Positions 17,772-52,455 of a stretch of DNA of 64,000 nucleotides are shown in pieces. This DNA comes from Sphingopyxis italica. Lineage in GTDB: Bacteria > Pseudomonadota > Alphaproteobacteria > Sphingomonadales > Sphingomonadaceae. A program made the position numbers and the translations under genes. The notes beneath the pieces were generated by a model. It was given only the letters and a program-made list of their open reading frames with translations. It ran no database searches and was not told the DNA's origin. The stretch's first letter is position 1, and each line of letters opens with the position of its first letter. The DNA is taken from assembly GCF_011926545.1 (NCBI RefSeq), contig NZ_JAATIT010000003.1, positions 248,001 through 312,000 on the forward strand, in the 5' to 3' direction.

Positions 17772-20297
17772 CTAAAACGCCTTGCGCCACTCCAGTTCGA
17801 CATAGCGACCGAGCGGATCGGTATAACCCGGCTGATAGTTCAGCGGCACAACCCCGCTCGCGTCGGTCACCTTGCGCTGTGCGTCGAACAGATTGTTGAC
17901 CGACAGGCGCAGGCGCGATCCTTTCAGGAAGGGCAGGTCGTCGGTCAGCTTCGGCATCTGGTTGAAATCGGCGAAGAAGCGCAGGTTGAACGTCGCGAGA
18001 TCGTGGAACTTCAGATCGCCGTTGGCACCGCCGACGATGCGGCTGCCGCTGTCATATTTGGCGCTGACCCGCGTCCCGAAGCCCTTGTAGAAAAGGCCGC
18101 CGTCGAGTTCGAGGAGGTGACGATTGGTGCCGCCGCCGCTGCCCGTCGCCGATCCGTTCAACAGGTCGAGTTCGGGAACGCCCGGGCCGATCAGTATTTT
18201 GTCGGTCAGCTTGATCGTGTGGTAGAGCGACACCTGCCAGCGCCCACCCTGCTGCTGCCGGCCGCCGAACATGCCGCCGCGCCCGCCGCCGCGGCCACGG
18301 AAGCCTCCGCCGCCACGTCCGCGGCGCTGCTCGCCTGCCTCGGCGGGTGGACGCTGTCCTTCGGCGGCGGGGGGCGGTGTGGCAGCCTCGCCGCCTTCAC
18401 GCGGCGCCGCCGCGTCCGCATCGCGCCGGGGACGGTCGCCGGCACCCGAGCGGCCGCCTTCGCCGCGCCCACGGCCGCCGCCCGAGCCCGCTTCGCTCTG
18501 GCCGAAGCTCTTGCCGAAATTGAAGCCCCAGCGAATCTGCGAATTGGTTGCGCGCTCGAAATTGACCGGACGCTGGTCGATCGCGAGCAAGGTTCCGTCG
18601 TCGTCGCGGATCACCCGGTCGGGAAAGGCCGCTTCGATCTCCGGGGTCAGCAGCGGAAAATTGTTCGCCGTGTCGTTGCTCTGGTTGCGGTTGTAATTGA
18701 TCGAGAAGCGGAGCCCCTCGACCATCGGCACCTCCCAGTTGAGCCCGACCTTGAGGTCGCGGCGCTGCTCGGCGAGCAGGAACGGATTGCCGCCGCTGAT
18801 CGTGTCGATCAGCACCGTCTGGCCGGTCCGGAAGTCGTAATAGGTGACACCCTCGGTCCGAAGCGGCGCTGCGCCGAGCTGGGTCATGCTGGGCGCCGCT
18901 TCGTCGCTGGAAAAGCTCGTGAGCAGCGACAGATTGTCGGTGACGCCCCAGTTCAACGTCGCGCCCCAGCTCGTCAGCGCCGAAAAGTCGCTCGGTCGTT
19001 CCGCCTGAGCATTCAGCGTCAATGACAGGCGGCCGATATTACCGATATCATATTCGGGATCGAGCAGCGGCACGGTGAGCGAGCCGAAGACGCTCGGCGT
19101 GTCGCGCGCCAGCTCGGTCGTGACGATGTCGAGGCCGCGCTCGGTTCGGCTGTCGAAACGCTGCCCGCTATAACCGCCGGTGATCGAGGAGCGGATCGGG
19201 CCCGCCCAACCCTCGACGACGCTGCCCGAAATATTGGCTTTGGTGCCAAAGCTCTGCTGGCTGCTGTCGAACCGGTCGCGCGTGCCGCTTTCCTGTTCGG
19301 TGAAGGTGCGCTGATCGGCGTCGGCATAATTGCCGGTCACCGACCAGCGCCAGTCGCCGAGCATGCCATTGACGCTCGCCGAGCTGGTCCAGTTCTGCGA
19401 ACGGCTGTCGCGGCGACGGGGATCGTCGGGGTTGCCGTTCCGCGGGCCGAGCAGCGACAGGCTGTCGTTCTGGTCGAAACGCAGGCTGACCGAGGCCTCG
19501 GTGACCTTGTCGATGTTGCGCACCAGCGTGCCGTCGATGACATATTGGTCGCTCGCGGGAGCCAGACTGCGCGCGGGCGCGCCGGCGGCGAGGACGGGGT
19601 CGTCGTAAACGAGGTCGCGCTCGCTTTCGAGCAGCATCGTCTGATGCTCCCAGCTGGCGTTGAGGTTGAGCCGGCCATTGTCGCCGATCGCCATGAAAGC
19701 GGGTTCGAGTTCGTTCTTGAACTGCCCCCCCTGCGTCGGAATGCCCGCCTCCGCCTCGACCGAAATCTGGCGGAAGTCGGGCTTGAGCACGAAATTGACG
19801 ACGCGCTCGGTCGCGGCATAGCCATATTCGAGCGCGACTTCCTCGGGGAAAATCTCGACCTTGGCGATCGCTTCGGGCGGGATGTTGCGCACCGCGCCGA
19901 AGCCCGAAATGCGCCGTCCGTTGACGAGGATGACCGGCCGTCCGCCGCGCCCGCGGCCCGAGCGCGTCTGCGGTTCGAGCGCGTCGAGCAACTCCTCGAT
20001 CGACGAGGCGCCATAGCTGGCGATCGCCGCCTCATCGAGTTCGGCCTCCGCCCTGATGTCGGTGGCGAGCTGGCCCGCGAGGCGCGGCGCCGTGACGATG
20101 ATCTCGTCCTCGCTATATTCGTCCTCCTCCGATTCATTGTCGGCGGATGCCGGAGGGGCCGCCTCGGCGGGCTGCTCGGCGACCGCGGAGGCCGCGGCGG
20201 GTCCGATCGGAGCCGCTGCCATCGCCGGCAGCGCCAACGAAGCCCCGGCCGCAAGGAGCGCGGCACGCGCGGAAATAGGCAGGCGGATAATATTCAT
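17772..20297 (-). CDS. TonB-dependent receptor with an RGG-rich insert
   Basis: 841 residues from the ATG at 20297, which begins a clear signal peptide (MNIIRLPISARAALLAAG, cleavage after AMAAA); an upstream in-frame ATG at 20339 is less likely. The plug domain has EIIVTAPR and VILVNGRRISGFG. The barrel ends in ELEWRKAF with a terminal Phe, as expected for outer membrane proteins. Residues ~605-689 are an insert rich in Gly, Arg, Pro and Glu (GRGRGEGG, FRGRGGGRGG), which is unusual for a barrel. Substrate unknown. Possible oar-like or carbohydrate/peptide uptake receptor. Confidence 0.85.
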   Translation of the reverse strand: MNIIRLPISARAALLAAGASLALPAMAAAPIGPAAASAVAEQPAEAAPPASADNESEEDEYSEDEIIVTAPRLAGQLATDIRAEAELDEAAIASYGASSIEELLDALEPQTRSGRGRGGRPVILVNGRRISGFGAVRNIPPEAIAKVEIFPEEVALEYGYAATERVVNFVLKPDFRQISVEAEAGIPTQGGQFKNELEPAFMAIGDNGRLNLNASWEHQTMLLESERDLVYDDPVLAAGAPARSLAPASDQYVIDGTLVRNIDKVTEASVSLRFDQNDSLSLLGPRNGNPDDPRRRDSRSQNWTSSASVNGMLGDWRWSVTGNYADADQRTFTEQESGTRDRFDSSQQSFGTKANISGSVVEGWAGPIRSSITGGYSGQRFDSRTERGLDIVTTELARDTPSVFGSLTVPLLDPEYDIGNIGRLSLTLNAQAERPSDFSALTSWGATLNWGVTDNLSLLTSFSSDEAAPSMTQLGAAPLRTEGVTYYDFRTGQTVLIDTISGGNPFLLAEQRRDLKVGLNWEVPMVEGLRFSINYNRNQSNDTANNFPLLTPEIEAAFPDRVIRDDDGTLLAIDQRPVNFERATNSQIRWGFNFGKSFGQSEAGSGGGRGRGEGGRSGAGDRPRRDADAAAPREGGEAATPPPAAEGQRPPAEAGEQRRGRGGGGFRGRGGGRGGMFGGRQQQGGRWQVSLYHTIKLTDKILIGPGVPELDLLNGSATGSGGGTNRHLLELDGGLFYKGFGTRVSAKYDSGSRIVGGANGDLKFHDLATFNLRFFADFNQMPKLTDDLPFLKGSRLRLSVNNLFDAQRKVTDASGVVPLNYQPGYTDPLGRYVELEWRKAF

Positions 20298-20490
20298 GGG
20301 GGAGAGCCTTTGTTTTTTTGTCTTGGTTTTTCTTGGCATGACGGGGCTTAACGCCTCCTGACGCCGCGCTTTGTCCGACGTTCACTTATGTCCCGCAATT
20401 GTCGCAACAATGTGTCGAGGCCATGCCCGTTCGACGGGCGACCCATATCGACCGCTGGACAGCATGGCCCCATGCCCTTATCGGCCAGCC

Positions 20491-26584: not shown

Positions 26585-26661
26585 GTGCGCGGCGTATCGC
26601 CGCCGCGCACCGCTTCCCCGCGCGCGCATTGTGAGCGCGCCCCGCCTTGTGATAGCAAGGC
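26585..26661 (+). promoter_or_regulatory. Three consecutive hairpins in the leader of the GFA gene
   Basis: Hairpin 1: GTGCGCGGCG/CGCCGCGCAC (26585-26610). Hairpin 2: GCGCGC/GCGCGC (26622-26640). Hairpin 3: GCCTTG/CAAGGC (26644-26661), which includes the AAGG ribosome binding site of the gene starting at 26665. Such an arrangement could control translation or simply stabilise the mRNA. The rest of the 221-bp gap has an AT-rich promoter-like stretch at about 26545-26562. Confidence 0.45.
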
Positions 26662-49807: not shown

Positions 49808-51580
49808 ATGAGCGATACGGGTAAGGACGACACGACCGAAACGCCGAATCCCTTCATGCCGTCGCCCGATGATCTGCAGCATTGGGCCAGCGTCATGGGC
49901 CGCGCGCAGCAGATGATGTTCGAATATGCGCTGGGTCAGGCGAACGAGGGCAACAGCGCCGCCGCGAGCCTGTTCGACCCTGCAAGCTGGCTGCAGAATC
50001 CGACGACCCAGCTCTGGGCTGAACAATCGTCGAAGATGTGGGAACAGGGTGTGGCCTTCTGGACCTCGCTCGCGACGGTCCAGCCCTCCTTCACGCCGGA
50101 CGCCGATGCGCCGAAGGACAAGCGGTTCGCCGATCCCGACTGGACTACAAACCCCGCCTTCGCACTGATCCGCCAGACCTATGGCCTGCTCGCCGAGCAA
50201 TTGCTCACAACGACCCGCACGATGCAGGGGCTCGACGAACATGCACGCGCGAAGATGGAGTTCGCCGCGAAGAACATGACCGACGCGCTCTCGCCTTCGA
50301 ACCTCGCGCTCACCAATCCCGAAGTAATCAAGCGCGCGGTCGAAACGCGCGGCGAAAGCCTGCTCAAGGGTTTGAAGCATATGCTGAGCGACCTGTCGCG
50401 CGGGCAGCTCTCGCACGTCGATCCCGACGCGTTCGAGGTCGGCGTGAATATCGCGATGACGCCAGGCAAGGTGATCCACGAGACCGATCTTTATCAGCTG
50501 ATCCATTATGCGCCGACGACGAAGCAGGTTTTCACGGTCCCGCTCGTCATCTTCCCGCCGTAGATCAATCGCTTCTACATCCTCGATTTGAACCCCGCGA
50601 AAAGCTTCGTGGCCTGGGCGGTCGAACAGGGGCTCAGCGTCTTCATGGTGTCGTGGAAGTCGGCCGACGCGTCGATGAGCGAGGTCGTGTGGGACGATTA
50701 TATCGCGGCGCAGGTCGATGCGATCGACACGGTGCGCGAGCTTCTTGACGTGCCGCACGTCCACACGATCGGCTATTGCGTCGCGGGCACCACGCTTGCC
50801 GCGACGCTGGCGATGCTCGCTGCGCGCGGCGAGGCCGACAAGGTCCGGTCGGTGACCTTCTTTACCGCGCAGGTCGATTTCGAACTGGCGGGCGACCTCA
50901 AGATGTTCGTCGACGAAAGCTATCTGACCTTGCTCCAGCAGCTGTCGGCGGGCGGCTTCCTCGATGGGCGCTATATGGCCGCGACCTTCAACAGCTTGCG
51001 CGGACGCGACCTTATCTGGAATTATGTCGTCAGCAATTATCTGCTTGGCAACGACTATCCGCCCTTCGACCTCCTTTATTGGAACGGCGATACGACGAAC
51101 CTGCCCGCGAAGTGGCACCGGCAATATCTGGTCGACCTCTATCGCGACAATCGCATGGTGATCCCGAACAGCCTGACGGTGATGGGGACGCCGATCGACC
51201 TCAAGAAGATCGAGACCCCCGCCTATATCCAGGCGGGCCGCGAGGATCATATCGCGCCGCTCGCCAGCGTCTGGCGGCTAATGGATCATCTGTCGGGGCC
51301 CAAGACCTTCGTCCTCGCGGGTTCGGGGCACATCGCCGGCGTGGTCAACCCGCCCGCGGCGGGCAAATATCAATATTGGACCGGCGACAATCAGGCCGCG
51401 ACGCTCGATGAGTTTGTTGCGGGCGCGGGCGAAACCAAGGGCAGCTGGTGGCCGCACTGGATTGGCTGGATTTCGCAGCAGGATGACGCAAAAACCGCAG
51501 CCAAAGGCGCGCGCATACCCGGAGAAGGTGCCAAAAAGGCCATCGAAGACGCCCCAGGCCGTTATGTCAAACAGCGGTAA
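49808..51580 (+). pseudogene. phaC: Class I polyhydroxyalkanoate synthase interrupted by one in-frame stop
   Basis: The reading frame is continuous over 590 codons except for a TAG at 50561-50563. The stop replaces the Trp of the highly conserved PPWINRFYILDL motif (TGG to TAG is one base). The N-terminal ~251 residues and the catalytic half both look intact: lipase-like box GYCVAGTT with the catalytic Cys, and GSGHIAGVVNPP with the His. PhaC polymerises 3-hydroxyacyl-CoA into storage granules. The AGGAA site before the ATG is fine. The second half has only a TTG at 50588 and no SD. Options: recent null mutation, sequencing error, or suppression. Confidence 0.85.
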
Positions 51581-51621: not shown

Positions 51622-51686
51622 TTTTGTGCACTGCACAAAAATATCCTTGAAATCGCCGCGCCGCTCCTATATTGTGCACTGCAACA
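51622..51686 (+). promoter_or_regulatory. Twin palindromic operators and promoter upstream of the phasin gene
   Basis: Site 1 (51622-51640): TTTTGTGCA-C-TGCACAAAA, perfect 9-bp arms. Site 2 (51672-51686): TTGTGCACTGCAACA, the same TGCACTGCA core, 48 bp downstream. A possible promoter lies between them: TTGAAA (51647-51652) and TATATT (51668-51673, overlapping site 2). Site spacing and position fit repression by a granule regulator such as PhaR; the repressor gene is not in the window. Confidence 0.6.
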
Positions 51687-51702
51687 TAGAGGAGTACCAC
51701 CG

Positions 51703-52455
51703 ATGGCTACCAAGATGGATAGTGCCGAAAAGGCTTTTGAAGCCGCGACGCTGGAAACCCCGGCCAAGCCGGTGGCGACTCCCGCCGCGCCTGTTCAAGC
51801 TGCTGCTCCGGCCGTAGCGAAGGCCGAACCGGCCCCTGCAAAGATCAAGACGGTGAAGGCAAAAGCCAAGCCGGCCGCGAAGAAGGCTGCTGCTCCCAAG
51901 GCGGTTGCCAAGAAGGTCGCTCCCAAGAAGGCGACTGTGAAAATTGCATCAAAGCCCCTTAAGGCCGCGCCGAAGCCGGTCGCTGCCGCCACCAAAGGAT
52001 TCAAGACCATGAACGACACCGTCAAGAAGTTCGCCGACGAAGCGAAGACCCGCACCGAAGCCCTGACCGCCGATTTCAACGCGAAGGCGAAGGAGGCGAT
52101 GAGCAAGACCAGCAAGTTCGCTGAGGAAGCCGTCGAATTCAACAAGGCGAACGTCGAAGCCCTCGTCGAATCGGGCAAGATCGCTGCCAAGGGCATCGAA
52201 ACGCTTGGCCAGGAAGGCGTGACCTATGCTCGCAAGAGCTTCGAAGACACGACCGCCGCGCTGAAGGGCTATACCGCCGTCAAGACCCCGGCCGACTTCT
52301 TCAAACTCTATGCCGAAAACAGCAAGAAGGCGTTCGACGCCGCCGTTGCGCAGACCTCGAAGACCAGCGAACTCGTCGTCAAGCTGACGAACGACAGCTT
52401 CGCGCCGATCTCGAACCGCGTTTCGGTCATCACCTCGAAGATGAAGGCCGCCTAA
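51703..52455 (+). CDS. Phasin family protein with Lys/Ala-rich N-terminus
   Basis: 250 residues. The first ~100 are Ala/Pro/Lys-rich and resemble a histone H1 tail ([17 protein letters not shown]), which could bind DNA or granules. The C-terminal part is a phasin domain ([55 protein letters not shown]), helical and without signal. It coats polyhydroxyalkanoate granules. GAGGAG lies before the ATG. It lies 122 bp after phaC with its own regulated promoter, and a strong terminator follows. Confidence 0.87.

Follow-up and report, generated by a model that had tools for sequence, protein, structure and literature searches.

We describe here a class I PHA synthase gene, phaC, that is interrupted by one in-frame amber stop and lies within a 64-kb window, by which we mean the whole stretch of DNA that was analysed. 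The reading that we favour, with a probability of about three in four, is a recent single-base nonsense change in the only phaC found, in a strain that is predicted to be PHB-negative. Through one recent base change, a Trp codon in the sole class I PHA synthase gene found would have become a stop; translation would end after 251 residues, ahead of the catalytic Cys, Asp and His, no active synthase would be made, and the strain would be unable to store PHB, with the genes for the regulator, depolymerase, reductase and phasin persisting. We infer that the base is real, that synthase activity is gone, and that the change is recent in the strain, whether it dates from the natural habitat, an enrichment or culture. 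The sequence-only reading of this DNA had left very recent loss, assembly error and amber suppression side by side as options. Very recent loss fits best, because there is a single lesion, purifying selection is still visible downstream of it and other PHA genes (phaZ, phaR, a phaB-type reductase and phasin) are intact; assembly error stays as the main rival, and amber suppression finds no support. Should the TAG prove genuine, the strain would be a PHB-negative mutant that arose naturally or in culture, and it would caution against predicting polyester storage solely because the genes are there. For the genetic code, the TAG in phaC offers nothing new.

The phaC frame and codon 252

The phaC frame (49808-51580, plus strand) runs through 251 residues, a TAG at 50561-50563 (codon 252), a further 338 residues and a closing TAA, and the TAG is the single lesion within its 590 codons. 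When read through the TAG, the frame scores 628.8 bits against TIGR01838, above the curated cut-off of 622.65, and is classed as a class I PHA synthase, although it is not the uninterrupted full-length frame expected of that class, owing to the TAG at codon 252. Pfam places PhaC_N and an alpha/beta hydrolase domain on it, and relatives with a solved structure were found. Both the reading of the frame and the TIGR01838 score confirm what had been claimed from the letters, an in-frame amber stop in an otherwise intact phaC. Its parts are as follows.

49808 to 50563, plus strand: 5' part of phaC, with the N-terminal region and the start of the catalytic domain, encoding a truncated product of 251 amino acids (scored on its own, 174.8 bits against TIGR01838)
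50561 to 50563, plus strand: in-frame TAG at codon 252; every one of the 109 related loci, with duplicates counted, has a Trp codon at this position
50564 to 51580, plus strand: 3' part of phaC, an open frame with the Cys, Asp and His codons, translation of which is not expected (TIGR01838, 430.2 bits alone)
50777 to 50779, plus strand: codon of the putative nucleophile Cys324, in the motif GYCVAG, by analogy with C. necator Cys319 (excerpt of PMC4008487)
51245 to 51247, plus strand: codon of Asp480, putative triad residue, by motif and analogy with C. necator (same excerpt of PMC4008487)
51329 to 51331, plus strand: codon of His508, putative triad residue, by motif and analogy with C. necator (same excerpt of PMC4008487)

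The triad residues are assigned by motif, and the C. necator triad named in the excerpted text of PMC4008487 is the basis of the analogy. Since Cys324, Asp480 and His508 all follow the TAG, the 251-residue product of the standard code is not expected to be active as a synthase; the catalytic Cys and His that had been placed downstream of the stop are indeed there, together with the Asp.

The set of related loci in which codon 252 is always Trp comprises 80 loci whose records are titled Sphingopyxis or other Sphingomonadales, with a few labelled no more closely than Proteobacteria or Pseudomonadota, and 29 unnamed loci; some of the 109 share a genome, and 19 of the 74 loci in one set are exact duplicates. 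Among the 80, those closest to the phaC of the window come mostly from Sphingopyxis records, for which reason the genome can be called Sphingopyxis-like. The residue at the stop had been described as a conserved Trp, which holds without exception among these loci but not in the wider family, where the position is Cys in 5hz2, 5t6o and 5xav and Phe in 9knj. We take these four to be C. necator, Chromobacterium and Aeromonas enzymes. In a search of 80 genomes of the genus, the strain's own included, a phaC match is present in all 79 others and is free of internal stops in every one; 78 of them cover codon 252 (the fragment in G083 falls short of it), and TAG is shared by none of the 78. A search of the strain's own genome returned one phaC match, the gene itself (G000:C3:297808-299580, 100% identity), and no second PHA synthase was found at an E value of 0.001. 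The gene therefore has a disabling lesion in its sole copy with its relatives intact, as in a unitary pseudogene.

Selection on phaC and the state of the other PHA genes

The age of the stop can be bounded from an analysis of selection on 56 distinct phaC sequences, that of the window included. The nearest of these to the window at synonymous sites is L197 (dS 0.346), and the tree clusters the window sequence with L197 and L084 with a support of 0.787. A phaC fragment in G084 (residues 250-590, 95% protein identity), which has the Trp codon at 252, was considered as a nearer relative than L197 and rejected, 118 of its 1023 bases being different. Between the window and L197, dN/dS is 0.104 overall, 0.101 before the TAG and 0.105 after it, and the value is unremarkable because the lowest 60 of 268 other pairs of comparable dS span 0.049 to 0.112. 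The relaxed selection after the lesion that marks a unitary pseudogene is thus not seen, which is compatible with a very recent lesion.

Codon changes after the stop point the same way. When L199 serves as outgroup, the window alone has 27 synonymous and 3 nonsynonymous changed codons, and L197 alone has 29 and 3 (counts from triplets of sequences); with L204, L089, L083 or L198 as outgroup, the window-unique changes are 20-28 synonymous and 2-3 nonsynonymous. Neutral drift along the whole branch would be expected to give roughly 64-82 nonsynonymous changes after the TAG, by a simple estimate with a ts/tv of 2 and repeated hits uncorrected, and the one-sided 95% upper bound of the 3 observed is 7.75. 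If the part after the stop drifts freely, the stop would therefore have arisen within the last 10-12% or so of the branch. We note that a gene still being translated would give the same pattern, so that the comparison bounds the age of the loss and does not prove the loss itself.

The phasin gene follows phaC directly, and three features are recognisable there.

51622 to 51640, plus strand: operator-like palindrome TTTTGTGCACTGCACAAAA upstream of phasin, from the sequence and a comparison in 8 relatives; presumably a PhaR-type site
51647 to 51687, plus strand: promoter-like TTGAAA...TATATT overlapping the second TTGTGCACTGCA element, kept in 8 relatives, with the promoter role assigned by eye
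51703 to 52455, plus strand: intact phasin gene (TIGR01841, 45.0 bits; PF09361, 85.3 bits)

The region upstream of phasin was compared in 8 of 15 relatives, the 7 with an opposite-strand match being left out. Each of the two operator-like elements (TTGTGCA..TGCA) is at most one base away from that of the window in the 8 relatives, the exact 11-mer TGTGCACTGCA occurring at both places in two of them, at one place in two and at none in four; all 8 also share the promoter-like TTGAAATC and TATATTGTGCA. The claim that the neighbouring phasin gene retains its operators and promoter is refined by these comparisons, and a candidate terminator can be made out by eye. Elsewhere in the genome, phaZ and phaR are without stops, as is one reductase that exceeds the phaB-type cut-off. 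With phasin, phaZ, phaR and the reductase intact, the step lost would be that of the polymerase.

Sequencing error, reading of TAG and restart after the stop

The main rival to a very recent loss is an error of sequencing or assembly, in which the consensus base is wrong and the real phaC is intact; we regard it as unlikely, yet as carrying appreciable weight. It would account for a lesion of a single base, for the absence of decay downstream and for a TAG that occurs in no relative, and the genome is a draft of 12 contigs in which two expected tRNA genes are missing. On the other hand, poor sequence is not seen nearby, and a census of other internal stops, in line with the check for in-frame TAGs in conserved genes that the sequence-only reading had proposed, left one other, weak candidate common to two lists in the 217 of 400 kb that was covered by the comparison with G016. 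Errors in the consensus base are rare in deeply covered bacterial drafts.

The census compared a 400-kb piece of G000:C3 with one of equal length from G016. A greedy best-hit list at an identity of at least 60%, with 216 kept stretches covering the 217 kb, holds 36 internal stops, phaC included, many of them close to the 5' end of their stop-to-stop stretch or where third-position bias is low; a two-sided filter at an identity of at least 75%, with no choice of best hit, passes 61, again including phaC, and many of these we take to be antisense shadow frames. Common to both lists, by an intersection made by eye, are phaC and G000:C3:136424 only, and the reverse comparison gives one place in both lists, G016:C1:2651601. 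The candidate at G000:C3:136424 (L219, outside the window) has TAG where G016 has Tyr, in an open stretch of 99 residues that may be no gene. Where the window has counterparts near phaC in G016 and G024, we judge by eye that the TAG of phaC is the one real internal stop; the remaining stops listed for that part against these two genomes lie in low-scoring frames or ahead of likely starts.

Amber suppression or readthrough, which would supply a conditional low level of full-length PhaC, is far less probable than an error. The frame downstream of the TAG is still constrained, and the family position holds Trp, Cys or Phe, so that some inserted residues might work. However, no CTA anticodon occurs among the 43 tRNA genes found with RF00005 and ARAGORN, or at two weaker places; release factor 1 (prfA) is intact, at 499.5 bits against a cut-off of 423.25 and without an internal stop; and, of the gene ends scored in the 400 kb that surround phaC, TAG closes 39 of 190, as it does 44 of 199 in G016, gene ends here being the ends of aligned stretches, some perhaps in wrong frames. 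What would mark an amber-recoded or suppressed gene, namely a CUA tRNA among the 43 genes found, a TAG conserved in relatives, and either TAG as a non-terminator or the loss of RF1, is in each respect absent. Slimmer still are the chances of the fuller version, in which a genuine TAG is decoded by an undetected suppressor tRNA or passed by leaky readthrough, yielding a little full-length PhaC, with storage switched by the reading of the stop codon.

The tRNA genes were sought with RF00005 over the genome, all 89 first-look candidates being scored, with 43 over the cut-off and 2 below it, and ARAGORN typed the tRNAs at the RF00005 places rather than genome-wide; the 64-kb window itself has no tRNA gene. 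A loose pattern of a CTA anticodon with a T arm gave 35 matches as against 165 in the reversed control, and at 19 of the 30 pattern loci (the other 11 overlap these) ARAGORN returned Gln, Glu and Val tRNAs only, none with CTA; five matches at three places with no locus fell outside that scan. The genome was thus checked for a suppressor tRNA, as had been suggested, with none in a set of 43 that is nearly complete. Missing from the list are tRNA-Ile(GAT) and tRNA-Ala(TGC), despite an assembly completeness given as 100. These two commonly sit in the rRNA operon, and 16S rRNA gave no match in a search in which 26 of 83 candidates were scored and which missed 5 of 14 control genomes. The absence of the two tRNAs together with that of a 16S rRNA match suggests that part of the genome may be unassembled, with a few tRNAs unseen; the rRNA operon of G000 may be among the unassembled parts.

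We give as little credence to a restart after the stop, at TTG 50588 or ATG 50645 for instance, with the two pieces acting as a split synthase. These in-frame starts lie 9 and 28 codons past the stop, and AGGGG stands about 12 bases upstream of the ATG. Against this, a well-placed Shine-Dalgarno sequence is absent by eye before either start, the C-terminal piece would be without about 260-280 residues, and N-terminal truncations of another PhaC, as given in an excerpt of PMC10867992, cut its mRNA and produced more granule-less cells. In that enzyme, by the same excerpt, mRNA fell by more than 80% when between 7 and 103 residues were deleted from the N-terminus, and granule-less cells increased from the full length to the 73-residue truncation, the deletion of 7 residues leaving the amount of PHA unchanged (PMC10867992). 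We find no positive support for either the suppression or the split-enzyme reading, and the stop has the look of a commonplace loss through one very recent base change, a sequencing error being the other possibility, with no special reading of the code.

Known phaC losses and the surroundings of the gene

The closest parallel is C. necator (Ralstonia eutropha) PHB-4, whose inability to make PHB the excerpt of PMC4008487 traces to a Trp codon turned into a stop in phaC. Both synthase genes carry a stop where one changed base has replaced a Trp codon, and the truncated product is without the triad. PHB-4 arose by chemical mutagenesis and has a TGA after 106 residues, whereas phaC of the window has a TAG after 251, and PHB-4 is PHB-negative, whereas the window strain is so by prediction from its sequence. 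Transposon mutants of phaC in Sphingopyxis granuli TFA grow and are devoid of PHB granules, and carbon catabolite repression is partly lifted in them, as stated in an excerpt of PMC6563040. They too have lost phaC, probably in the same genus, although by laboratory insertions that partly release catabolite repression of the tetralin genes rather than by a single-base stop. The viability of these mutants shows that loss of phaC can be tolerated, and we speculate that it might even be favoured in some cultures. Among open-licence papers on phaC nonsense mutations or pseudogenes, or on PHB in Sphingopyxis, titles and the beginnings of abstracts contain no recognisable report of this allele, and excerpts of PMC12636752 and PMC9728866 have no bearing on it.

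Elsewhere in the window, the segment 3340-25258 has no counterpart in the 71 kb of G016 around phaC, whereas the flanking genes on both sides do, and in the 71 kb of G024 around phaC matches to the window start only near 26656. An open frame of 855 residues at 17775-20339 (minus strand) has no Pfam match at 1e-5. Nine of 10 proteins of the segment that were scanned match Pfam, mostly as ordinary genes, including CobS- and CobT-like proteins, a TPP enzyme, an aldehyde dehydrogenase, a GMP synthase and a TonB receptor, and because of this gene content a rearrangement seems likelier than an island.
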